From Aquiflexum gelatinilyticum (lineage in GTDB: Bacteria > Bacteroidota > Bacteroidia > Cytophagales > Cyclobacteriaceae), in NCBI RefSeq assembly GCF_024741135.1, contig NZ_JANSUY010000001.1, positions 744,001 through 808,000 on the forward strand: a DNA stretch of 64,000 nt, read 5' to 3'. The notes below the pieces were generated by a model that made no database searches, was not told where the DNA came from, and worked only from the letters and a program-made list of their open reading frames with translations. Positions within the stretch are counted from its first letter, which is position 1, and every line of letters starts with the position of its first letter. The position numbers and the translations under genes are program-made. Below are positions 13,807 through 24,124 of this stretch, in pieces.

Positions 13807-14472
13807 TTAAGGTTTGCTTTTGAAATTCAGGTCTGACAACCTTTTTCTCAATTTTCTCATGAATTTTGGACCGGGATCCTGTTTTTGGGTCAGGTAGTTA
13901 GGGTCAGTTTCTTTCCAAATTGGTGTCCCTTGAAATGCATAATATTCGTGGTGGCCTATCACATAAGTAAGTTTATACTTTTTGTTAAGATACCTTATCA
14001 AATCAGCGTTTGCTTTGACCTGTGCTTTGGTCAGTGGCGCATCCGGGCCCCCGATATTTTCGATACCTATTGCAGTATAGTTGAGTCCAATGGTATGTCT
14101 TGCAAAGGTCGTGTCAGGAAGTAACCTGAAGATAGTTCCGTCCCTGTCAACCAAAAAATGCGCCGAAACATTGAGGTTGCTCGCGGCAGTCAGTTCGGGT
14201 CTGCCTCCGAGATGAACGGGATTGAATACCTCAAAAGTCGATTCCAATGAATAGACCGCCGTCCAATGCACCACGACCATAGTGGGTTCAATGGTTGCAG
14301 TTTCTTTCTCAATGCCATGCCTGCTTTTAAGATATTGAAGAGAAAGGTTTTCCCTTTCTTGGTCAAAAACTATTGGCTTGTCAAATATTCGGAAAGTTTG
14401 CGCCTTGGACTTTAGGATTGCGAAAGCACAAAAAAAAGTAAACATTAAGAAAATGTGGGTGGTTTTTTTCAT
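13807..14472 (-). CDS. N-acetylmuramoyl-L-alanine amidase (Amidase_2, AmpD fold), secreted
   Basis: 221 residues with a signal peptide (about residues 1-24) and an AmpD-type zinc amidase domain. Predicted zinc ligands are His69 (VVVHWTA), His174 or His175 (VIGHHEY) and Asp199 (QDPGPKF). It cleaves the lactyl-amide bond between MurNAc and the stem peptide. Unlike cytoplasmic AmpD, the signal peptide places it in the periplasm or outside. It is the first gene of the 14472-8758 minus-strand unit, so the promoter should lie just upstream of 14472. Confidence 0.9.
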   Translation of the reverse strand: MKKTTHIFLMFTFFCAFAILKSKAQTFRIFDKPIVFDQERENLSLQYLKSRHGIEKETATIEPTMVVVHWTAVYSLESTFEVFNPVHLGGRPELTAASNLNVSAHFLVDRDGTIFRLLPDTTFARHTIGLNYTAIGIENIGGPDAPLTKAQVKANADLIRYLNKKYKLTYVIGHHEYYAFQGTPIWKETDPNYLTQKQDPGPKFMRKLRKRLSDLNFKSKP

Positions 14473-14591
14473 TTCATCATTAAATACGAATGTCCAGAGT
14501 CAAATTTTACTCAAAATAAAGGAATTTATTCTATAGCTGAATTCCAAACACTAAAACTTTGGAGGAGATTGAAATTAAATAAAAACAAAAA

Positions 14592-14615
14592 GCCCCAATC
14601 TCAATAGACTGGGGA
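14592..14615 (-). terminator. Rho-independent terminator of the hsp20 gene
   Basis: On the minus strand, the inverted repeat formed by CCCCAGTCT and AGATTGGGG (one mismatch, short loop) is followed at once by a T-rich run (CTTTTTGTTTTTATTT). It lies 22 bp past the hsp20 stop codon, in the correct orientation. Confidence 0.85.
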
Positions 14616-14637
14616 CTTGCATACGTAGGAAAAAATC

Positions 14638-15084
14638 TCAACCTACCGAAATGGCTTTTTTGGGTTTGTCACTTTCAATAACCTTCTTTGGGAGGACTAC
14701 ATTCAAAATGCCATTATCATATTTGGCATCTATTTTTTCGTCCATCACGTTCTCGGGAAGGCTGAATGAACGCCTGATACTTGAATACGAGAATTCTTTC
14801 TTACGGTAATTTTCTTTCTTCTCCTCTTTCTTCTCTTCTTTTTCGGCGCTGATATTCAGCATTCCGTCTACAACTTCGACTTTAAAATCTTTTTTGTCAA
14901 AGCCCGGTGCAGAAAGTTCAAGTTTGAACTCTTTGTCATTTTCAATCACATTGGTGGAAGGAATTTCCACGCCTTTTTCAGGAAGCCAGAATTTTTCGTC
15001 CCAATCAAATGGGTTTTCTGTCCCAAAGAAATCCTGAACCAATTTTGGCCAGGCGCTTCCGTTTTGCTTAGTTAGTAATCCCAT
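14638..15084 (-). CDS. Small heat-shock protein, Hsp20/alpha-crystallin family
   Basis: 148 residues. An alpha-crystallin domain occupies about residues 38-140. It begins STNVIENDKEFKLELSAPGF and ends with DAKYDNGILNVVLPKK, the G-x-L motif strand of the family. The inserted loop is very rich in Lys and Glu (EKEEKKEEKKE). The protein is an ATP-independent holdase that prevents aggregation in the cytoplasm. It is monocistronic, with its own terminator downstream and 118 bp to the next gene. Confidence 0.93.
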   Translation of the reverse strand: MGLLTKQNGSAWPKLVQDFFGTENPFDWDEKFWLPEKGVEIPSTNVIENDKEFKLELSAPGFDKKDFKVEVVDGMLNISAEKEEKKEEKKENYRKKEFSYSSIRRSFSLPENVMDEKIDAKYDNGILNVVLPKKVIESDKPKKAISVG

Positions 15085-15202
15085 GGCTTTTAGAATTTAG
15101 AGGTTAATTGGATTTTTTTAACGACGCTAAGTTAATATCATCCAAATAAAAATCACATGATAATAGTCACATAACCAACTGATTATGCTCAAAAAATGCA
15201 AG

Positions 15203-16162
15203 TCAAAAAAGCTTCCTTACAATATTTTCAATGCATTTGGAGGAAAGTCTTGCGGTAATATTGTCGTTATCAAAAACCGGATTTAGTTCAACAATGTCCA
15301 TGCTTATCAGCTTACCTGTTTTGGCCAAATAATGGAATATCCTGAAAGCCAACTCAGGTGAAAATCCCAAAGGAGAAGGCGCACTCACCCCGGGAGCATA
15401 TGCTGATGAAAAACCATCAAGGTCTACACTGAGGTATATTTTATTGACTTGAAGACAAAAATCATCCAAAGTTTGTGCAATGGTTTCCCAATTGGCCAAA
15501 GTGAATTCCTCCATTTCCAACCATCGGACTTTGTGTTTTAAGGCAGTTTCAAAAAGTACTTTTGGATTGGATGATTGTTGGATACCAAGGCATAGGTAAT
15601 GGAAGTTGCTTTGGTAATCATTGGCCAACTGAAAAAATGGTGACCCCGAATGTCCTTTGCCGCTGTTCAATTCCCTGAGGTCAAAATGGGCGTCCAGATT
15701 GATGATGCCTAATTTTTCGCTTTTGGGAATCAAATACTCCAGTATCCCGCGACCATGGGCAAAAGCAAGGTCGTGTCCACCGCCCAATAAAACAGGGAAA
15801 TAGTTGTTTTGGAGTAATTCGGTTACGGTTTTGGAGATAAGCGAATGACTCGATTCCATGTCTTCACCTTCTGTGATAATATCCCCCATATCATAAATCC
15901 CAACATCCTCAGGCAGGTGAAAGGCCATCGGGCCCATCATTTTCCTGATAGCTTCCGGGCCTTTGGCTGCACCCGTTCTCCCAAGATTTCTACGGACTCC
16001 TTCGTCTCCTGCATAACCTAGGATTGCAACCCCTTTTCCATTTGCAGGTTGATCGATATGCAGATTATCCACACAGGTCACAGCCTGATGCCAATATTGA
16101 ATGGATTCAGATGGACGACCTGTCCAGATATGGGGTGGTGTTGGATGGTGAAGAAGAGCCAT
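15203..16162 (-). CDS. hutG: Formimidoylglutamase (arginase/ureohydrolase family)
   Basis: 319 residues with the binuclear-manganese motifs of ureohydrolases: GGGHDLAFAHG, NLDAHFDLR and SVDLDGFSSAYAPG. The APGVSAPSPLGF continuation favours formimidoylglutamase, the last step of histidine degradation to glutamate and formamide, over arginase or agmatinase. Arginase-like alternatives cannot be fully excluded, since no other hut genes are in the window. Two palindromic AACCGGTT boxes lie just upstream of the start (16176-16211) and could be operators. Confidence 0.8.
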   Translation of the reverse strand: MALLHHPTPPHIWTGRPSESIQYWHQAVTCVDNLHIDQPANGKGVAILGYAGDEGVRRNLGRTGAAKGPEAIRKMMGPMAFHLPEDVGIYDMGDIITEGEDMESSHSLISKTVTELLQNNYFPVLLGGGHDLAFAHGRGILEYLIPKSEKLGIINLDAHFDLRELNSGKGHSGSPFFQLANDYQSNFHYLCLGIQQSSNPKVLFETALKHKVRWLEMEEFTLANWETIAQTLDDFCLQVNKIYLSVDLDGFSSAYAPGVSAPSPLGFSPELAFRIFHYLAKTGKLISMDIVELNPVFDNDNITARLSSKCIENIVRKLF

Positions 16163-16175
16163 TTTTAAAGATTGA

Positions 16176-16211
16176 AACCGGTTTTTCTTTTTTGTAATAA
16201 TAAAACCGGTT
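16176..16211. promoter_or_regulatory. Paired AACCGGTT palindromes upstream of hutG
   Basis: The 8-bp palindrome AACCGGTT occurs at 16176-16183 and again at 16204-16211, 28 bp apart centre to centre; together they also form a 10-bp inverted repeat. They lie 14-49 bp upstream of hutG, and the second overlaps the stop codon of the 74-residue gene. No T-run follows, so this does not look like a terminator. An operator for a dimeric regulator is the simplest reading. Confidence 0.45.
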
Positions 16212-16434
16212 ATGATTTGGCAAGATAAAGGTTGAATTCCAAGGCATTGCCGGCTACAAATTCATCCACAGCGAGGTCTTCCATGATTTCATCATCAAAC
16301 TCCATTTCGGTTTTTTCCACTTTCCCGTCGGGATGGATAATCAGTTCAGTCCCAGTCCAATCCTCAGGATTGACCTTGACCAAAACCTGGTAATCGTCAA
16401 ACACCCTTTTGAAATATTTTGGCATCGTACCCAT
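16210..16434 (-). CDS. Conserved-looking small hypothetical protein
   Basis: 74 residues, acidic overall, with the N-terminal MPKYFKRVFDDYQVLVKV and a central TELIIHPDGKVEKTEMEFDD that suggests a small beta-rich fold. No signal peptide, membrane segment or catalytic motif is visible, and I recognise no family. It is divergent from the trp operon, sharing a 92-bp upstream region with the trp leader. Its position upstream of hutG on the same strand, 47 bp away, would allow cotranscription. Confidence 0.55.
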   Translation of the reverse strand: MGTMPKYFKRVFDDYQVLVKVNPEDWTGTELIIHPDGKVEKTEMEFDDEIMEDLAVDEFVAGNALEFNLYLAKS

Positions 16435-16483
16435 AGCGTCAATTTTTTATTCAAAATTACCCATAATTTTATTCAATATCTTT

Positions 16484-16512
16484 TTGATAAGCAAAATGCA
16501 TTTTTAACTTTG
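16484..16512 (+). promoter_or_regulatory. Predicted Bacteroidota sigma-A promoter of the trp operon
   Basis: TTG at 16484-16486, an 18-nt spacer and TAACTTTG at 16505-16512 match the phylum consensus TTG / TAnnTTTG. Transcription should begin near 16517, about 10 nt before the leader-peptide ATG at 16527, giving a very short 5' end ahead of the attenuator. Confidence 0.65.
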
Positions 16513-16526
16513 TCCCACTGAAAAAA

Positions 16527-16601
16527 ATGAAAACAACTCAAAACACATATTGGTGGTGGCATTGGACTTCTAAAATAGAAGAACCAGTTGTTGTTGCCTG
16601 A
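16527..16601 (+). CDS. trpL: trp leader peptide (24 residues, four Trp codons)
   Basis: ATG at 16527 and TGA at 16599-16601 enclose a 24-residue peptide whose middle reads TYWWWHWTSK. The four TGG codons (16551-16559 and 16563-16565) are a density that is essentially diagnostic of a tryptophan attenuator leader. The peptide lies between the predicted promoter and an intrinsic terminator upstream of trpE. Ribosome stalling at the TGG codons under Trp starvation would cover the first stem segment of the attenuator (16561-16571). The peptide itself is not expected to have a function. Confidence 0.93.
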   Translation: MKTTQNTYWWWHWTSKIEEPVVVA

Positions 16602-16661
16602 ATTTTGTGTTTCTATAACATATCGAAAGGGCTTACTGGTTTTTCCAGTAAGCCCTTTTTT
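16561..16661 (+). promoter_or_regulatory. trp attenuator with mutually exclusive 1:2, 2:3 and 3:4 stems
   Basis: Segment 1 (16561-16571, containing the last Trp codon) pairs with segment 2 (16577-16588): five pairs, a small internal loop, then CTTCT/AGAAG. Segment 2 (16578-16588, GAAGAACCAGT) pairs with segment 3 (16635-16645): eleven pairs, one G-U. Segment 3 (16626-16639) pairs with segment 4 (16645-16658) as the terminator. A ribosome stalled at the Trp codons masks segment 1 and frees 2:3, giving read-through. One that reaches the TGA at 16599 covers segment 2, giving 3:4 and termination. This is the classical E. coli logic, here in Bacteroidota. Pairings were worked out by hand. Confidence 0.9.
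16626..16661 (+). terminator. Intrinsic terminator of the trp attenuator (3:4 stem)
   Basis: GGGCTTACTGG (16629-16639) and CCAGTAAGCCC (16645-16655) form a perfect 11-bp stem with a T5 loop, extended by three A-U pairs and followed by a T-run to 16661. It ends 19 bp before the trpE ATG, so it must be bypassed for operon expression. Confidence 0.94.
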
Positions 16662-16680
16662 ATTTCTTAAACCTATTGAT

Positions 16681-18087
16681 ATGGAAAAGTTCAAAATCAT
16701 TACCCATCATAAAAAGCGCTTGGCTGATACCATCACGCCAGTCAGCATTTACCTTCAGATTAGGGACAGGTTTGCCAATCCCATTTTGTTGGAGAGTTCT
16801 GATTACCATGGGCAAGAGGACAGTTTCTCCTATATCTGTTTCAATCCGATTGCTTCATTCTCATTTAATGGAGGGTTGGTAAAAGAAAGACTTCCTTTTG
16901 GCGAGTCCATTTCCTATCCTGTTGGGCCTGAATTGAACCTTGTTGATGCATTGAGAAAGTTCTCGGGGAGATTTCAGGATGACAACGGGAAGCACAAATT
17001 CATCAGCAATGGCCTTTTTGGGTATATGCAGTATGATACTTTGGCTTATTTTGAAGATATCAAGCTGGAAAATTCCTCTCCGGATTCGAGTCCGATGCTA
17101 CATTATGCGGTGTACCAAAATGTGATCGTAGTCGACCATTTCAAAAATGAGATGCATCTCTTTGAACATCAGGTGGAGGGAATCGAAACAGAAGTGCAGC
17201 TTCCGCTTTTGGAAACCCTTCTCAACAATAAAAACCTTCCTTCTTATTCTTTCAAATTGGTAGGAGAGGAGTCTTCCAACTATACCGATTCGGAATTTTT
17301 GGATATCCTCAAAAAGGGTCAGGAGCATTGCTTCCGTGGCGATGTTTTCCAAATTGTGCTTTCGAGGAACTTCTCCACCCAATTCAAAGGAGATGAGTTC
17401 AATGTCTACCGTGCACTCCGTTCGGTCAATCCTTCGCCTTACCTCTTCTATTTTGACTATGGATCCTATAAGGTTTTTGGGAGTTCACCCGAGGCACAGA
17501 TTGTGGTCAAAAACAACAAAGCCACGATTTATCCTATTGCCGGAACTTTCAAGCGGACAGGAAATGACATGGCTGACGCAGACTTGGCAAGGAAACTTTA
17601 TGACGATCCAAAGGAAAACTCCGAACATGTCATGTTGGTAGACCTTGCGAGAAATGACCTCAGCCGGTCCTCCGAAAAAGTGGAAGTAGAGGTTTTTAAA
17701 GAAATCCAATACTATTCCCACGTAATCCATTTGGTGTCCAAAGTGACCGGTATCCTTCCCGAAGGCACAAACCCACTGCAGTTGGTGGCCGATACATTCC
17801 CTGCAGGCACACTGTCCGGTGCTCCTAAGTACCGAGCGATGGAGCTCATTGACCAACTCGAAAATACTTCCCGAAAATTCTATGGAGGCGCTATCGGATT
17901 CCTAGGATTCAACGGTGACTTCAACCATGCCATTTTGATCCGGTCATTTGTCTCCCAAAACAACAGACTGCGGTTCCAAGCCGGTGCCGGAGTCGTAGCC
18001 AAATCTTCCATTCCTTCTGAACTTCAGGAAGTCGCCAACAAACTCGAAGCACTCAGGGTGGCGCTGAAAGCAGCGGAGGGGATCTAG
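16681..18087 (+). CDS. trpE: Anthranilate synthase component I
   Basis: 468 residues from the ATG at 16681, placed after the attenuator. Converts chorismate and ammonia (from TrpG) to anthranilate. The N-terminal LLESS (residues 36-40) is the tryptophan-binding feedback motif. The chorismate-binding core shows GSSPEAQIVV, IYPIAGTFKRTG, DLARNDLSR and AGTLSGAPKYRAMELID. The Trp-site motif distinguishes it from aminodeoxychorismate synthase PabB. So the enzyme is feedback-inhibited while transcription is attenuated. The TAG stop is followed after 3 nt by the left arm of the IVS-like module. Confidence 0.97.
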   Translation: MEKFKIITHHKKRLADTITPVSIYLQIRDRFANPILLESSDYHGQEDSFSYICFNPIASFSFNGGLVKERLPFGESISYPVGPELNLVDALRKFSGRFQDDNGKHKFISNGLFGYMQYDTLAYFEDIKLENSSPDSSPMLHYAVYQNVIVVDHFKNEMHLFEHQVEGIETEVQLPLLETLLNNKNLPSYSFKLVGEESSNYTDSEFLDILKKGQEHCFRGDVFQIVLSRNFSTQFKGDEFNVYRALRSVNPSPYLFYFDYGSYKVFGSSPEAQIVVKNNKATIYPIAGTFKRTGNDMADADLARKLYDDPKENSEHVMLVDLARNDLSRSSEKVEVEVFKEIQYYSHVIHLVSKVTGILPEGTNPLQLVADTFPAGTLSGAPKYRAMELIDQLENTSRKFYGGAIGFLGFNGDFNHAILIRSFVSQNNRLRFQAGAGVVAKSSIPSELQEVANKLEALRVALKAAEGI

Positions 18088-18090
18088 GGT

Positions 18091-18123
18091 ATTGAAAAAT
18101 TGGAAGATTGGAAAATTACAAAA
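18091..18123 (+). repeat. Left arm of 33-nt inverted repeat around the S23 gene
   Basis: The stretch ATTGAAAAATTGGAAGATTG (18091-18110) and its continuation to 18123 match the reverse complement of 18641-18673 at 29 of 33 positions. Two of the four differences still allow G-U pairs in RNA. It begins 3 nt after the trpE stop. Further similar AT-rich repeats run to about 18141. A close relative lies directly after the hisH stop (26981). Confidence 0.8.
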
Positions 18124-18187
18124 TTGAAAAATTGTAAAATTCATATACTAAAGACTGATTCAATGATCTTTAAATAAAACATTAGAT

Positions 18188-18601
18188 ATGGGTAAAATAG
18201 AAAGGTTTGAAGATCTGGGGATTTGGAAAAAGGGGGTTGAAATCGCTGTCCAAGTATATGAATTGGCAGATAAAGGAATTTTAGCCTCTGATTATCGGTC
18301 AAGAAGTCAAATTATAGCTGCAGCACTATCCATTTCAAACAATATTGCTGAAGGATTTGAATATAACAGTAACCGTGCTTTTATGAAATATTTGACTTAT
18401 GCCAAAGGTTCAGCAGGAGAGGTGAGAAGTGAAGCTTATGTCCTGATGCTCACAAAAAGGATAACAAAAGAAGACTATGACAAACTCTATCCTCAATTAG
18501 TAGAATTGTCCAAAGAGATTAAGGGGTTTATCAAATACCTGAGCGATTTTGAAAAGAACAAAGATCCAAAACAAGTAAAAGATCAAAATCCAAAAAGTTG
18601 A
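18188..18601 (+). CDS. Four-helix bundle protein, 23S rRNA-intervening-sequence (S23) family
   Basis: 137 residues. The characteristic family segments are FEDLGIWKKGVEIAVQVYEL, SRSQIIAAALSISNNIAEGF and the C-terminal LSKEIKGFIKYL. These proteins were first found encoded in intervening sequences of fragmented 23S rRNA and are structurally related to the Avd protein of diversity-generating retroelements; their biochemical role is unclear. Here the gene lies between trpE and trpG and is enclosed by 33-nt inverted repeats at 18091-18123 and 18641-18673, as in rRNA IVSs. It has no evident role in tryptophan synthesis. A basic, Lys-rich tail follows the bundle. Confidence 0.92.
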   Translation: MGKIERFEDLGIWKKGVEIAVQVYELADKGILASDYRSRSQIIAAALSISNNIAEGFEYNSNRAFMKYLTYAKGSAGEVRSEAYVLMLTKRITKEDYDKLYPQLVELSKEIKGFIKYLSDFEKNKDPKQVKDQNPKS

Positions 18602-18640
18602 AATTTAACCAAGGAAAGCTTAGAATAAACGGAATTTAAA

Positions 18641-18673
18641 TTTTCTAATTTTTCAATCTTTCAATTTTCCAAT
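18641..18673 (+). repeat. Right arm of 33-nt inverted repeat around the S23 gene
   Basis: A pyrimidine-rich stretch containing TTTTTCAATCTTTCAATTTT, ending 7 bp before the trpG ATG. Its reverse complement matches the left arm (18091-18123) at 29 of 33 positions. The shared word CAATTTTCCAA also occurs just before rfbB (34431-34453). Confidence 0.8.
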
Positions 18674-18680
18674 CAAAAAA

Positions 18681-19247
18681 ATGAAAATCCTCGTCCTCGA
18701 TAATTACGATTCATTTACATATAACCTGGTGTACATCATCAGAGCTTTGGGCTATGGTCCACAGATGGATATTTTCCGGAATGATAAAATCAGTCTTGAA
18801 GAAGTCTCCAATTATGATAAAATACTCCTTTCACCCGGCCCGGGAGTTCCTGCTGAAGCGGGGATAATGCCGGAATTGCTGAGAACATATTCCGCTACCA
18901 AGGATATCCTCGGAATCTGTCTTGGACATCAAGCGATCGGAGAGGCATTTGGAGGGACTTTGATCAACCTTTCGGAGGTGGTTCACGGACTTGCTTCTGA
19001 AGTGAAAGTCACAGATGATCTGATTTTCAAAGGGCTTCCCGAAAAATTCAAAATAGGCCGATATCATTCTTGGGTGATCAATGAACAGACACTCTCCCCT
19101 GATTTGGAAGTCACCGCCAGAACACCCGATGGTCAAATTATGGGTGTTAGACACAAAGAATTTAAAGTCCGCGGTCTCCAGTTCCATCCTGAATCTGTGT
19201 TGACAGAACATGGCGTAGCCATGATGAAAAATTGGCTGGAAAGCTGA
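18681..19247 (+). CDS. trpG: Anthranilate synthase component II (glutamine amidotransferase)
   Basis: 188 residues, a class I glutamine amidotransferase. It hydrolyses glutamine to supply ammonia to TrpE. The nucleophile Cys80 is in LGICLGHQAIGEAFGG, and the catalytic His-Glu pair is in FHPESVL near residue 170. It starts MKILVLDNYDSFTYNLV, typical of TrpG/PabA; it may also serve folate synthesis as in many bacteria, since no separate pabA is visible. The IVS-like module separates it from trpE, and a 232-bp spacer full of repeat words separates it from trpD. Confidence 0.96.
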   Translation: MKILVLDNYDSFTYNLVYIIRALGYGPQMDIFRNDKISLEEVSNYDKILLSPGPGVPAEAGIMPELLRTYSATKDILGICLGHQAIGEAFGGTLINLSEVVHGLASEVKVTDDLIFKGLPEKFKIGRYHSWVINEQTLSPDLEVTARTPDGQIMGVRHKEFKVRGLQFHPESVLTEHGVAMMKNWLES

Positions 19248-19325
19248 GGGAGGTGGGAAGGATGGAAGTTTGGAAGTTTGGAAGTCGGGAAGTAGGAAGT
19301 ACCAAGTACCAAGTACGAAGTGTCC
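19248..19325 (+). repeat. GGAAGT/GAAGT purine-rich word tract after the trpG stop
   Basis: Immediately after the trpG TGA, repeated words GGAAGTTT, GGAAGTCG, GGAAGTA, then three close variants of CAAGTAC, run to 19325. Related purine-rich tracts follow the trpB stop (23187-23250). The complementary ACTTCCC form precedes hisA (27148-27180). Confidence 0.7.
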
Positions 19326-19344
19326 AAAAATTAGACCCAGCCAG

Positions 19345-19479
19345 ATAACCATTAACCAATAACCATTAACCTGACAACAACTACAACCATTACAACAACT
19401 ACAACAACTACAACCAATACAACAACTAAAACCGCTTCACCAATTAACCAAATAACCTATAAACCATTAACCAACATCC
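19345..19479 (+). repeat. TAACCATTAACC words and six tandem 9-bp ACAAC units before trpD
   Basis: 19345-19371 repeats ATAACCATTAACCAATAACC-type words. 19374-19427 is an exact 9-bp register of six units (ACAACAACT four times, ACAACCATT and ACAACCAAT). 19437-19479 returns to TTAACC words up to the trpD ATG. The strand carries almost no G here. The 9-bp unit is shared with 5746-5781. Confidence 0.8.
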
Positions 19480-20493
19480 ATGAAAGACATACTCAACCAC
19501 CTGATAGAACACCGGAGCCTTTCGAAAGACCAGGCAAAGGAAGTTTTGAAAAAAATCACATCAGGTTCATACAACTCCAGTCAGATCGCGGCTTTTCTGA
19601 CAGTGTACCTGATGAGAAGCATTACTGTAGAGGAATTGGGAGGATTTAGAGAAGCGATGTTGGAGTTGTGCATTCCGGTGGAGATATCCGAATACGATGC
19701 CATGGACCTTTGCGGCACAGGCGGTGACGGAAAGGATACTTTCAATATCTCTACCCTTGCCTCCTTTATCGTAGCAGGTGCAGGACAAAATGTAGCCAAA
19801 CATGGAAACACCGGAGTGTCTTCGATCTGTGGTTCTTCAAACCTTTTGGCGCACTTTGGATATGAGTTTACCAATGACATCGGCAAGATCAGAAAGAGCC
19901 TTGATGAAGCAGGAATCTGTTTTTTGCATGCGCCGCTTTTCCACCCTGCCATGAAAAATGTCGGTTCAATCAGAAAAGAATTGGGGGTAAAAACATTTTT
20001 CAATATGTTGGGTCCGATGGTCAATCCAAGTTTCCCTAAAAAACAATTGGTAGGGGTTTTCAGTCTTGAGTTGGCGAGACTCTATGCCTACCTCTATCAG
20101 GAGCACGATGGCAACTTCAGTATTTTGCATGCCTTGGACGGCTATGATGAGATTTCCCTCACTGGGGATTTCAAAATGATTTCCAATTCGGGAGAAAAAC
20201 TCCTCAGTCCGGAGAGCATTGGTTTGCCCAAAATCTCTCCAGATTCCATCTTGGGGGGAGAAACCGTCGAAGAGTCCGCCAGAATATTTGACAATATATT
20301 GAAAGGAAAAGGTACAGTTCCACAAAATTCTGTTGTCCTGGCCAATGCCGCTGCGGCGCTGGTAACGGCAGATCCTGAATTGGGATTTGAATCTGCTTTG
20401 GAAAAAGCAAAGGATTCCCTTTATGGAGGTAGTGCGCTGAAAGTTTTCAATGCCTTGGTCAATCCAAAAACAACTGTTTCATTTTCAAACTGA
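19480..20493 (+). CDS. trpD: Anthranilate phosphoribosyltransferase
   Basis: 337 residues. Transfers phosphoribose from PRPP to anthranilate. The PRPP-binding GTGGDGKDTFNIST and the KHGNTGVSS motif (anthranilate/PRPP site) are intact, and the N-terminal helical domain starts MKDILNHLIEHRSLS. It is a single-function enzyme, not fused to TrpG. The next gene, trpC, begins 2 bp after its stop, so the pair is probably translationally linked, in contrast to the long repeat-filled gap upstream. Confidence 0.97.
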   Translation: MKDILNHLIEHRSLSKDQAKEVLKKITSGSYNSSQIAAFLTVYLMRSITVEELGGFREAMLELCIPVEISEYDAMDLCGTGGDGKDTFNISTLASFIVAGAGQNVAKHGNTGVSSICGSSNLLAHFGYEFTNDIGKIRKSLDEAGICFLHAPLFHPAMKNVGSIRKELGVKTFFNMLGPMVNPSFPKKQLVGVFSLELARLYAYLYQEHDGNFSILHALDGYDEISLTGDFKMISNSGEKLLSPESIGLPKISPDSILGGETVEESARIFDNILKGKGTVPQNSVVLANAAAALVTADPELGFESALEKAKDSLYGGSALKVFNALVNPKTTVSFSN

Positions 20494-20495
20494 TC

Positions 20496-21317
20496 ATGAT
20501 GAATATTTTAGATAAAATAATTGCCCACAAAAAATTAGAAGTTGCTGAAAAAAGCAGTTTGGTACCTGTAAAGTTGCTTGAACAAAGTGTCTACTTTGAC
20601 AGCAATGTCGTGTCGATGAAAAAGTATATCAAGCACGAAGACAAAACAGGCATCATCGCAGAATTCAAAAGGAAATCCCCTTCCAAAGGAGCCATCAATA
20701 CCAATGCCTCGGTGGAGACAGTCAGTATTGGTTATATGCAGGCAGGTGCTTCTGCATTGTCAATTTTGACCGACAAAGAGTTTTTTGGCGGAAAAAATGA
20801 GGATTTGACCACAGCCAGGAAATTCAATTTCTGTCCCATCCTTCGGAAGGATTTTATCATCGATGAATACCAAATCATCGAAGCCAAGTCAATTGGAGCA
20901 GATTGCATCTTGTTGATTGCAGCGGCATTGGAGTCAAAAAGGCTTAAGGAATTGGCGGTTTTTGCGCATTCTTTGGGATTGGAAGTGTTGATGGAAGTTC
21001 ATGATATTGAGGAATTGGATGCTTCAATCAACGAGCATTTGGATCTGATCGGAGTCAACAACCGAAGCCTGAAGACTTTCGAAGTTTCTTTGGAAACATC
21101 CTTTGGTCTTGTGGATAGGATTCCCGCAGAATTTATCAAAATCTCAGAATCGGGCATTTCCCGGCCCGAGACCTTGATATCACTGAAAAATGCAGGATTT
21201 GATGGATTTCTTATCGGGGAAAATTTTATGAAATCCGCGCGTCCTGAGCAGGCTGCATATAATTTTATGCATGAATACAGAAGATTATTGGTAGAAAATC
21301 AAGCAATTTCTCAATAA
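20496..21317 (+). CDS. trpC: Indole-3-glycerol phosphate synthase
   Basis: 273 residues (two consecutive ATGs at 20496 and 20499). Ring closure of CdRP to indole-3-glycerol phosphate. TIM-barrel motifs: IIAEFKRKSPSKG (catalytic Lys), LRKDFIIDEYQI, LIGVNNRSLKTF and ISESGISRPETL. Unfused to TrpF, unlike E. coli. Packed tightly between trpD (2 bp) and trpF (1 bp). Confidence 0.97.
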   Translation: MMNILDKIIAHKKLEVAEKSSLVPVKLLEQSVYFDSNVVSMKKYIKHEDKTGIIAEFKRKSPSKGAINTNASVETVSIGYMQAGASALSILTDKEFFGGKNEDLTTARKFNFCPILRKDFIIDEYQIIEAKSIGADCILLIAAALESKRLKELAVFAHSLGLEVLMEVHDIEELDASINEHLDLIGVNNRSLKTFEVSLETSFGLVDRIPAEFIKISESGISRPETLISLKNAGFDGFLIGENFMKSARPEQAAYNFMHEYRRLLVENQAISQ

Positions 21318-21318
21318 A

Positions 21319-21945
21319 ATGAAGCTAAAAGTCTGTGGCATGCGAGAATCCGCCAACGTCCGAAATCTGTTGGACCAAGTCCAACCGGATTGGATGGGGT
21401 TGATTTTCTACCCGGCTTCCCCAAGGTTTGTGGACGATATCCAAGCAGATTGGATCAGAGATACAAAGATCAGGAAAGTAGGCGTATTTGTTGATGCGTC
21501 TCTTACAGATATTGCTGAGAAAATTCAAAAGTTTGGGCTTTCTACAATCCAGCTTCACGGAAATGAAAGTGTCGAGGAAGTAAGAGAAATCAAGGAAAAA
21601 ACCGGTTTAGAGGTTTTCAAGGTATTCTCCATTGACAAAAATATCGATTGGAAGCATTTGGAGGGTTATCTTCCACATGTGGATTATTTCCTCTTCGATA
21701 CCTTCACCCATACCTACGGTGGCAGCGGCAAAACCTTTAACTGGCAAATCCTCCTAGATTACCCATTCGACAAACCCTTTTTGCTCAGCGGTGGTTTAAC
21801 CTTAGGACACCTGGATGCCATTGGGGATATGAAGTCCAAAGTTCCCCAATTGCAGGGTTTAGATATCAACTCCAAATTTGAAATCGAACCAGGACTAAAG
21901 GACATCGACTTGGTCTCTGAATTCAAAAAGTCATTAAAATTTTAA
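21319..21945 (+). CDS. trpF: Phosphoribosylanthranilate isomerase
   Basis: 208 residues. Amadori rearrangement of PRA to CdRP. The start MKLKVCGMRESANVR carries the family's KxCG motif with the catalytic Cys at residue 6. The catalytic Asp lies in FLFDTF, and the phosphate site in LSGGLT. Because a dedicated TrpF is present, the downstream HisA need not be bifunctional. It starts 1 bp after trpC, and 62 bp of repeat-like sequence separate it from trpB. Confidence 0.96.
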   Translation: MKLKVCGMRESANVRNLLDQVQPDWMGLIFYPASPRFVDDIQADWIRDTKIRKVGVFVDASLTDIAEKIQKFGLSTIQLHGNESVEEVREIKEKTGLEVFKVFSIDKNIDWKHLEGYLPHVDYFLFDTFTHTYGGSGKTFNWQILLDYPFDKPFLLSGGLTLGHLDAIGDMKSKVPQLQGLDINSKFEIEPGLKDIDLVSEFKKSLKF

Positions 21946-22007
21946 AATGAATCGCAAGCTTGGATTGTCTTGAATCTTGTGTCTTGTGTCTAAAATCTGA
22001 ACAAAAA

Positions 22008-23186
22008 ATGATCAAAATCGACGAAAAAGGCTTTTATGGAAAATTCGGCGGGGCGTATATCCCGGAGATGCTCCATCCCAATATTGAGGAACTCAGAGAA
22101 AACTATGAGCAAATTATGGCCACACCGGAATTTCAAAAGGAATTCAGAGGCTTGCTCAAAGACTTTGTCGGAAGACCGACTCCATTGTATTTTGCCTCTA
22201 GGCTTTCCGAGAAGTATGGCGCCAAAATCTATCTCAAAAGAGAAGACCTTTGCCACACCGGTGCACATAAAGTGAACAATACAGTGGGTCAGATTATCAT
22301 GGCCAAAAAACTTGGAAAGAAGCGCATCATTGCAGAAACCGGTGCCGGACAACATGGAGTCGCTACAGCTACAGTCTGTGCGTTGATGGGGATGGACTGT
22401 ACGATCTATATGGGTGCAGTGGATATCCAAAGACAGCGGCCCAATGTCGAGCGAATGAAAATCCTTGGTGCTAAGGTTGTTCCTGCGACTTCCGGTAGCC
22501 AAACCCTCAAGGATGCTACCAATGAAGCGATGCGCCAATGGATCAATAATCCTGTCGATACACATTATATCATCGGTTCGGTAGTCGGTCCACATCCATA
22601 CCCTGAAATGGTGGCAAGGTTCCAATCTGTTATATCCGAGGAAATTAAATGGCAGCTCAAAGAAAAAGAGGGAACCGAAAATCCTGATGTGGTCATCGCA
22701 TGCGTGGGTGGAGGTAGTAATGCTGCGGGAGCTTTTTTCCATTATTATAATGTTCCCCAAGTAAGATTGGTGGCTGCAGAGGCCGCAGGTTTGGGAGTGA
22801 CATCAGGAAAATCTGCTGCTACGACTGTTTTGGGAACTTCAGGAATCCTGCATGGCAGCAAGACTTTGTTGATGCAGACAGAAGATGGGCAGGTGGTAGA
22901 ACCCCATTCTATTTCAGCAGGATTGGATTACCCCGGAATCGGACCAGTTCATGCGCACCTGTTCGATATTGGAAGAGCGGAATTTGTGGCTGTGGAGGAT
23001 GAGGATGCCATGAAGGCCGGAATCGAACTCAGCCGTACTGAAGGAATCATTCCCGCGATCGAAACTGCACATGCGATCCATGCTTTGAACCTGATAGAAT
23101 ACAGCAAAGATGACATCATTGTAATTAATCTATCAGGAAGAGGAGACAAGGATTTGGATACGTATATCAAATGGGGAGGATATTAG
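22008..23186 (+). CDS. trpB: Tryptophan synthase beta chain
   Basis: 392 residues from the ATG at 22008; an in-frame TTG at 21960 would add 16 residues from the repeat-like spacer and is unlikely. Condenses indole with serine using PLP. Lys88 in HTGAHKVNN forms the Schiff base. [18 protein letters not shown] and the PLP-phosphate loop [10 protein letters not shown] are also intact. N-terminal [12 protein letters not shown] is typical of TrpB1, the form that partners with TrpA. The spacer before it contains CTTGTGTCTTGTGTCT words, and a long purine-rich tract follows its stop. Confidence 0.97.
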
Positions 23187-23346
23187 GAAGGATGAAGGAG
23201 GAAGTGTGAAGTACGAAGAAGACAGAAGTCGGAAGACAGAAGACAGAAGTTTTTAAACCCTCTTCTCAATCCTTTGTCCTTTTCACTTAATTTCCAACTT
23301 TTAACAAAAACCAATCTCATGTCTTTTGTCTCACGTCTCACGTCTT
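23187..23346 (+). repeat. trpB-trpA spacer with complementary repeat tracts
   Basis: The 5' half (to about 23250) is built of GGAAG/GAAGACAGAAG words and starts right after the trpB stop. The 3' half (23315-23346) is built of TGTCTTTTGTCTCACGTCT words and ends 4 bp before the trpA ATG. AGACAGAAGACA (23234-23245) can pair with TGTCTTTTGTCT (23320-23331) over 12 nt with one G-U, folding the spacer back. Confidence 0.65.
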
Positions 23347-23350
23347 AACT

Positions 23351-24124
23351 ATGAATCGGATAGATAAATTATTTCAAACCAAAAAAGAGCGGGTGCTCTC
23401 TATATATTTTACTGCAGGTTTTCCAAAACTCGAGGATACGCTTCTTATCATGCAAGCCATTGAGTCGGCCGGTGCTGACATTATCGAAGTTGGAGTTCCC
23501 TATTCTGATCCGATCGCAGATGGCCCTACCATTCAGGACAGCAATCAGATTGCCTTGGACAATGGCATGAGCCTAAAAAAGCTTTTTGAGCAATTGCAGG
23601 ACATGCGACAAACTGTTTCTTTGCCGGTGGTCTTGATGGGATATTTGAACCCGATCATCCAATACGGGATGGAGGCTTTTTGTAAAAAATGTCAGGAAAT
23701 CGGCGTAGATGGGCTGATTCTCCCTGATCTGCCCATGCAGCAATACTTAGATGAATTCAAGGAAATCTTTGACAGGTATGACCTTCGCAATACCTTTTTG
23801 ATTTCTCCGCAAACAAGTGAAAAGAGAATCCGGGAAATTGATACCCACTCCAATGGGTTCATTTACATGGTTTCTGCGCATAGCATTACCGGCGCAAGGA
23901 CAGGGATTTCAGAAGAACAGATTGCCTATTTCCAAAGATTGGAGGCCATGAACCTTAAAAATCCGAGATTGATCGGGTTTGGGATTTCCGAATCAGAAAC
24001 TTTCACCACCGCCTCCAAATATGGAAACGGAGCCATCATTGGCAGTGCTTTTATCAAAAAAATCAAAGAAAGTCAGGACCTAAAATCTGACATTGAATCT
24101 TACATACAGTCCGTAATCCATTGA
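23351..24124 (+). CDS. trpA: Tryptophan synthase alpha chain
   Basis: 257 residues. Aldol cleavage of indole-3-glycerol phosphate to indole, channelled to TrpB. The catalytic Glu is in IIEVGVPYSDPIADGPTIQ and the catalytic Asp in GLILPDLPMQQ. The phosphate-binding GFGISESET and GAIIGSAF are near the end. Full length for the family. The DAHP synthase gene follows after 4 bp, indicating that the entry step of the shikimate pathway is coexpressed with the trp genes. Confidence 0.97.
   Translation: MNRIDKLFQTKKERVLSIYFTAGFPKLEDTLLIMQAIESAGADIIEVGVPYSDPIADGPTIQDSNQIALDNGMSLKKLFEQLQDMRQTVSLPVVLMGYLNPIIQYGMEAFCKKCQEIGVDGLILPDLPMQQYLDEFKEIFDRYDLRNTFLISPQTSEKRIREIDTHSNGFIYMVSAHSITGARTGISEEQIAYFQRLEAMNLKNPRLIGFGISESETFTTASKYGNGAIIGSAFIKKIKESQDLKSDIESYIQSVIH

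Follow-up and report, generated by a model that had tools for sequence, protein, structure and literature searches.

The trp operon in the window (i.e. the complete stretch of 64,000 nucleotides that was analyzed) is very probably controlled by a ribosome-mediated transcription attenuator, as judged from the sequence upstream of trpE and from its counterparts in other genomes. An earlier note on this DNA had proposed control of the E. coli type, and both the anatomy of the element and the phylum-wide comparison support that proposal well. The features that carry the assignment are: i) a leader ORF with consecutive Trp codons; ii) an intrinsic terminator between this leader and trpE; and iii) a segment 2 that is complementary to segment 3, as found by pooling 87 units. 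As a Trp-codon leader and a switchable stop signal precede the trp genes, production of the enzymes is most likely restricted to conditions of tryptophan shortage. In this phylum, such a mechanism has been known since 2010, and the value of the present analysis is in the extent of the control, its register and the geometry of the leader start.

Anatomy of the leader region

The features that were identified in and around the element are listed in Table 1.

Table 1. Positions of the putative control elements and the genes of the trp operon within the window.
Feature	Position	Strand	Basis
TTTG, candidate Bacteroidota promoter element at -33, 18 nt before the -7 box	16483..16486	+	sequence
TAACTTTG, matches the Bacteroidota promoter element TAnnTTTG	16505..16512	+	sequence; 14 nt upstream of leader start
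trp leader peptide ORF, MKTTQNTYWWWHWTSKIEEPVVVA*	16527..16601	+	sequence; Trp-run leaders before trpE in relatives
5' arm of predicted outer helix (partner 16606-16612)	16541..16547	+	fold; place of the RF01692 consensus outer stem
Trp codons 9, 10, 11 and 13 (TGG TGG TGG CAT TGG), putative sensing site	16551..16565	+	sequence
Segment 1	16562..16572	+	fold
Segment 2 (antiterminator strand 16578-16588)	16576..16588	+	fold and duplex
3' arm of predicted outer helix (partner 16541-16547)	16606..16612	+	fold
Segment 3: terminator 5' arm and loop (16635-16645 pairs with segment 2)	16625..16645	+	fold; 3:4 covariation
Segment 4: terminator 3' arm and U-rich tail	16645..16663	+	fold; 3:4 covariation
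trpE, anthranilate synthase component I, regulated first gene	16681..18087	+	Pfam PF00425, PF04715
trpG, trpD, trpC, trpF, trpB, trpA, same operon	18681..24124	+	Pfam

The leader ORF is present as the earlier note had described it, with 24 codons, among them four TGG codons (9-11 at 16551-16559 and 13 at 16563-16565), followed by TGA at 16599. The stretch 16517-16665 folds with a predicted energy of -46.4 kcal/mol (z = -4.85), which was equalled by none of 200 shuffled sequences, and no leader-terminator unit besides that of trp was found when the window was scanned from end to end. The three pairings that had been proposed were recovered close to their given limits. Among them are the 2:3 helix, with 11 continuous pairs including one G-U (16578-16588 with 16635-16645), and the 3:4 stem, with 15 pairs (16625-16639 with 16645-16659), a loop of 5 nt and a U-rich tail, i.e. 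an intrinsic terminator. The 2:3 duplex of the window was modestly better than that of shuffled sequences (p = 0.035 and 0.025 in two shuffle tests). The proposed 1:2 stem has slightly different limits (16562-16572 with 16576-16587) and lies within a longer stem of the predicted fold, in which the Trp codons are paired too and which is closed by the outer helix.

The window was then folded with parts of the transcript masked, where the edges of a ribosome stalled at Trp codon 9, 11 or 13 were set by assumption. With segment 1 masked and the transcript extending to 16645, the predicted minimum was the 2:3 pairing in all three cases (-22.4, -22.4 and -22.2 kcal/mol, respectively). For a ribosome positioned on the stop codon, the RNA downstream of it was predicted to be most stable as the 3:4 terminator (-25.2 kcal/mol). 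The earlier idea that a ribosome at the leader stop lies over segment 2 was retained in part: since a ribosome usually covers some 15 nt to either side, the 3' part of segment 2 would be masked but the rest would be left uncovered. When segment 4 was included, the terminator was the predicted minimum (-30.5 kcal/mol) even with segment 1 masked, and the unmasked transcript to 16645 already preferred 2:3 over 1:2. The switch therefore requires that the RNA folds in the order of its transcription, which is assumed for the trp attenuator of E. coli as well.

The window carries a gene for a 23S rRNA intervening-sequence protein (PF05635) at 18188-18601, between trpE and trpG. A wide gap between the two genes with an ORF that looks similar by eye was found in 6 of 14 relatives (L002, L004, L009, L014, L028 and L047); the assignment by Pfam concerns the window copy alone.

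Distribution of the leader-terminator unit

The best 80 of 588 confirmed trpE relatives were taken as closest to the window, the nearest named ones being Cecembia and Belliella. An ORF with at least two Trp codons (ATG, GTG or TTG start) was found within 450 nt before trpE in 79 of these 80; the sole miss, locus L067, has 51 nt of upstream sequence. The combination of an ATG-started ORF and a terminator was recovered 78 times, in 76 of 81 loci (window counted), and no such unit was found at L039, L046, L063, L067 and L069. At two loci (L034, L038) two tandem Trp leader-terminator units lie upstream of a single trpE.

The comparison was extended to the phylum with a sample of 296 genomes, 253 of which encode TrpE at E ≤ 1e-60; the genomes without TrpE at this threshold (at least five of the class) were left out. 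We examined 67 genomes of the class of the window (own genome excluded; the class was taken as Bacteroidia on the basis of the named relatives) and 22 of the 185 genomes outside it, which were hand-picked for family diversity. A Trp leader with terminator precedes trpE in 59 of the 67 class genomes and in 17 of the 22 hand-picked genomes from outside the class. An ORF without a terminator that passed the finder was recovered in 7/67 and 3/22, respectively, and neither of the two in 1/67 and 2/22. As controls, 1470 stretches were taken from both strands of the regions that flank the trpE loci, most of them coding; the full unit was recovered from one of these and the ORF alone from 110. In G238, the class genome in which neither was recovered, the Rfam family RF01692 is matched about 1.25 kb upstream of trpE, as if another gene precedes trpE there. 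At six loci from outside the class (L154, L159, L160, L169, L170 and L172) the Trp leader before trpE comes with a 2:3 duplex at p = 0.005 to 0.010.

Conservation of the alternative pairings

The 153 units that were collected were reduced to 87 by dereplication and each was compared with 200 shuffles. The 2:3 duplex was better than the shuffles at p ≤ 0.05 in 38 units and not in the other 49 (median p 0.065), and the pooled Fisher p over the 87 units was ~1.6e-33, a figure that ignores kinship. The position of segment 2 with respect to the Trp codons is kept: it starts 12-24 nt past the Trp run in 68/87 units versus 27% of the shuffles, most commonly at a distance of 20 nt. As its position varies by 5.7 nt when counted from the Trp run and by 12.3 nt when counted from the stop codon, it is the Trp codons and not the stop codon that set the register of segment 2. 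From the leader ATG up to segment 3, the predicted folds were more stable than those of shuffles (mean z -1.76 over the 87 units; -1.41 for the window), which favours pairing of the 1:2 type. In the simulated 'starved' transcripts segment 3 pairs upstream in 86/87 units, but it does so in 47/87 free leaders too (raw count).

A clade alignment of 35 sequences (33 distinct), in which segment 2 is poorly aligned, was used to look for compensatory changes. TGGTGG is among its invariant columns. For the terminator, 98.3% of the cells were paired, versus 63.9% for the best slid version, both sides had changed in 4 of 11 pairs, and the covariation score was reached by none of 500 shuffles; the number of further pair types was not unusual (95/500 shuffles). 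When the 2:3 pairs of the window were taken in their exact register, 54.5% of the cells were paired and a one-column slide paired better (65.1%), and in these 35 sequences with their badly aligned segment 2 the changes on both sides of a pair were no commoner than in shuffles (268/500). In this clade, the terminator shows compensatory changes.

For some lineages, it seems that segment 2 includes the UGA stop codon itself. This is suggested by the 19 units with an ORF that ends in GTGA: in 12 of these, the arm or the loop of the terminator contains a matching TCAC, versus 11 of the 68 other units (kinship ignored).

Putative promoter and leader start

TAnnTTTG is named as a Bacteroidota promoter motif in a passage of PMC6414381. 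We found the motif within 60 nt from the leader start in 56 of the 70 dereplicated class units with sufficient upstream sequence; among 261 control windows it was present in 7. Of 16 units from outside the class, 2 have it before the leader. The gap between this box and the leader ATG, which was assigned by rule, does not exceed 13 nt in 39 of the 56 class units and is 14 nt in the window. Transcription starts about 4 nt downstream of the promoter box, and if this is also the case here, most of these class units would have a 5' UTR of at most 10 nt. A Shine-Dalgarno-like 4-mer was found before the leader in one of the 87 units. Because the gaps between box and ATG are short, the 5' UTR is in most cases predicted to be at most 10 nt and Shine-Dalgarno-like sequences are rare, the trp leader genes look near-leaderless, given these inferred start sites. 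For Flavobacterium johnsoniae, the relevant part of PMC6847099 gives leaders of more than 10 nt for 87% of the predicted transcripts.

Relation to RF01692 and other known attenuators

The Rfam family RF01692 (Bacteroid-trp) carries the name 'Bacteroidete tryptophan peptide leader RNA' and can be traced to a table row in a survey from 2010 (PMC2864571). The earlier note had supposed that RNA-level control of trp is little described in the Bacteroidota, which is refuted by RF01692 and by passages in PMC6414381 and PMC9723704. Novelty of trp attenuation within the phylum was ruled out, given that the RF01692 element was described in 2010. Another comparative study of attenuation of that year, by Lopatovskaya et al. 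(cited in PMC4833913), may already include Bacteroidota.

On the window, RF01692 was aligned whole (model positions 1-131) and in register at 16498-16637, with a score of 27.8 bits, which is below the gathering cut-off of 49 bits. The match had an E-value of 0.26 for 4227 families and 251 nt, which by division corresponds to ~6e-5 for a single family on a stretch of this length. Lower E-values were obtained for two unrelated families, STnc180 (0.013) and PyrR (0.016), and GibS tied; all were below their own cut-offs, and PyrR, STnc180 and the other Rfam matches were rejected as identity of the element for that reason. In a search of 40 genomes, in which the best 63 candidates per genome were scored, RF01692 matched in 21 at E ≤ 1 and passed the cut-off in 10, all outside the family of the window. 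It recovered none of the eight tested genomes of that family at E ≤ 1 among the best 63 candidates of each, while the window and most of these genomes carry the switch; in the own genome, the element of the window was not among the matches at E ≤ 1 for the best 63 of 1048 candidates.

The element lies directly upstream of trpE, G, D, C, F, B and A in a member of the Bacteroidota, like RF01692, and the two share Trp codons in the first stem, an outer closing stem and the terminator arm GGCUU at the 3' end. In contrast to RF01692, the leader ORF of the window and of many near relatives often continues through segment 2 and does not stop inside it. On these similarities the element is to be regarded as of the same kind as RF01692, and by position and register the two are probably of the same lineage. 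Because the score stayed at 27.8 versus 49 bits and none of the eight family genomes was recovered, we consider the element to be a branch, not listed under RF01692, of an already known type of attenuator.

The trpL leader of E. coli encodes a peptide with Trp codons and forms three alternative stems and an intrinsic terminator, all of which have their equivalents here. The E. coli leader has WW, whereas the window has four Trp codons and WWW occurs in 63 of the 87 units. Further differences with E. coli trpL are: the absence of a Shine-Dalgarno-like 4-mer in 86/87 units, the short inferred 5' UTR, and the UGA stop that seems to lie within segment 2 in some lineages. Flavobacterium psychrophilum belongs to another order of the phylum than the organism of the window. 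The same mechanism has been proposed for this species: a passage of PMC6414381 (2019) places Bacteroid-trp before its trp operon and compares it with the E. coli attenuator, and according to a passage of PMC9723704 there are strong clues that amino-acid operons are preceded by leader-peptide attenuators.

A second candidate attenuator upstream of ilvD

The ilvD gene of the same genome is preceded by a leader (MFQIVTPLSFIILICNKN*) and a terminator (locus L180, G000:C17, ~9918-9802, minus strand). The sequence TGAGGCACT at the stop of this leader is fully complementary to AGTGCCTCA in the terminator arm, and the region is likely to be a second attenuator. A leader rich in Ile, Leu and Val codons, together with a terminator, was found at 8 of 29 PF00920 loci in 16 genomes (raw count; 7 of 28 besides the present one), and leaders of this type occur in 5 of 8 genomes of the family of the window. 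No defensible leader was found in the own genome before hisG or before the homoserine dehydrogenase gene.

Proposed mechanism and alternative explanations

In the proposed mechanism, RNA polymerase would start near 16515-16520 and a ribosome would begin translation of the leader after a very short 5' UTR, which has no Shine-Dalgarno motif. At low levels of Trp-tRNA, the ribosome would stall at codons 9-13 and cover segment 1, and the free segment 2 would pair with segment 3 before segment 4 is synthesized; with 2:3 formed, the terminator would not arise and the trp genes would be transcribed. With ample Trp-tRNA, the ribosome would reach the stop at 16599 and mask the 3' part of segment 2, and segments 3 and 4 would form the terminator, with the transcript ending near 16663. 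In the case that the leader is not translated, an early 1:2 stem could sequester segment 2 and favour termination.

The mechanism predicts that leader RNA and leader peptide are released, and either of these might additionally act in trans, for which peTrpL of Sinorhizobium meliloti provides a precedent (PMC7298713). Within families the peptide is indeed fairly constant beyond the Trp run, e.g. TWWWNNLRQTS in one family and KYWWWHS...KAQKAVA in Algoriphagus. However, part of that constancy concerns codons that belong to paired segments, and apart from the Trp run the peptide diverges widely from family to family, which makes an additional role in trans improbable.

We consider it far less probable still that the terminator is real but responds to another sensor (a T-box, a TRAP-like protein or a riboswitch), with the Trp-rich ORF being incidental. 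T-boxes are used in the trp operons of other phyla, and TRAP is described as serving such operons there, but the Rfam models for the T-box core or a trp riboswitch were not matched at E ≤ 1 on 14000-20000 or at E ≤ 10 on 16450-16700, and both the invariant TGGTGG and the conserved distance of segment 2 from the Trp run argue for sensing by the leader ORF. Control by translation or by reinitiation at trpE in place of termination is just as hard to maintain: leader genes near structural genes may assist reinitiation (according to a passage of PMC4833913), but here 79 nt and a strong terminator separate the leader stop from trpE, and the terminator stem has been preserved with compensating changes.

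Implications for trp control in the Bacteroidota

Ribosome-mediated attenuation may reach well beyond the window, as Trp leaders before trpE extend to genomes outside its class. What the analysis adds to earlier knowledge is modest: the spread beyond the class, the register set by the Trp codons, the stop that in some lineages seems to lie within segment 2, the seemingly near-leaderless starts and the ilvD candidate. We give an even chance to the broader view that such attenuation is the general and ancestral mode of trp control throughout the phylum (and of ilvD in several members), acting on near-leaderless leaders without Shine-Dalgarno sequence, with segment 2 following the Trp codons at an almost constant distance and in some lineages with the UGA included in segment 2. 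According to PMC6847099, Shine-Dalgarno sequences are absent from the mRNAs of the Bacteroidota. If the broader view is true, general attenuation on near-leaderless genes would imply a close coupling of translation and transcription in the Bacteroidota, in which translation must track RNA polymerase closely from the first codons onward without the help of a Shine-Dalgarno sequence. The trp leader constitutes a natural reporter for the question of transcription-translation coupling in this phylum.
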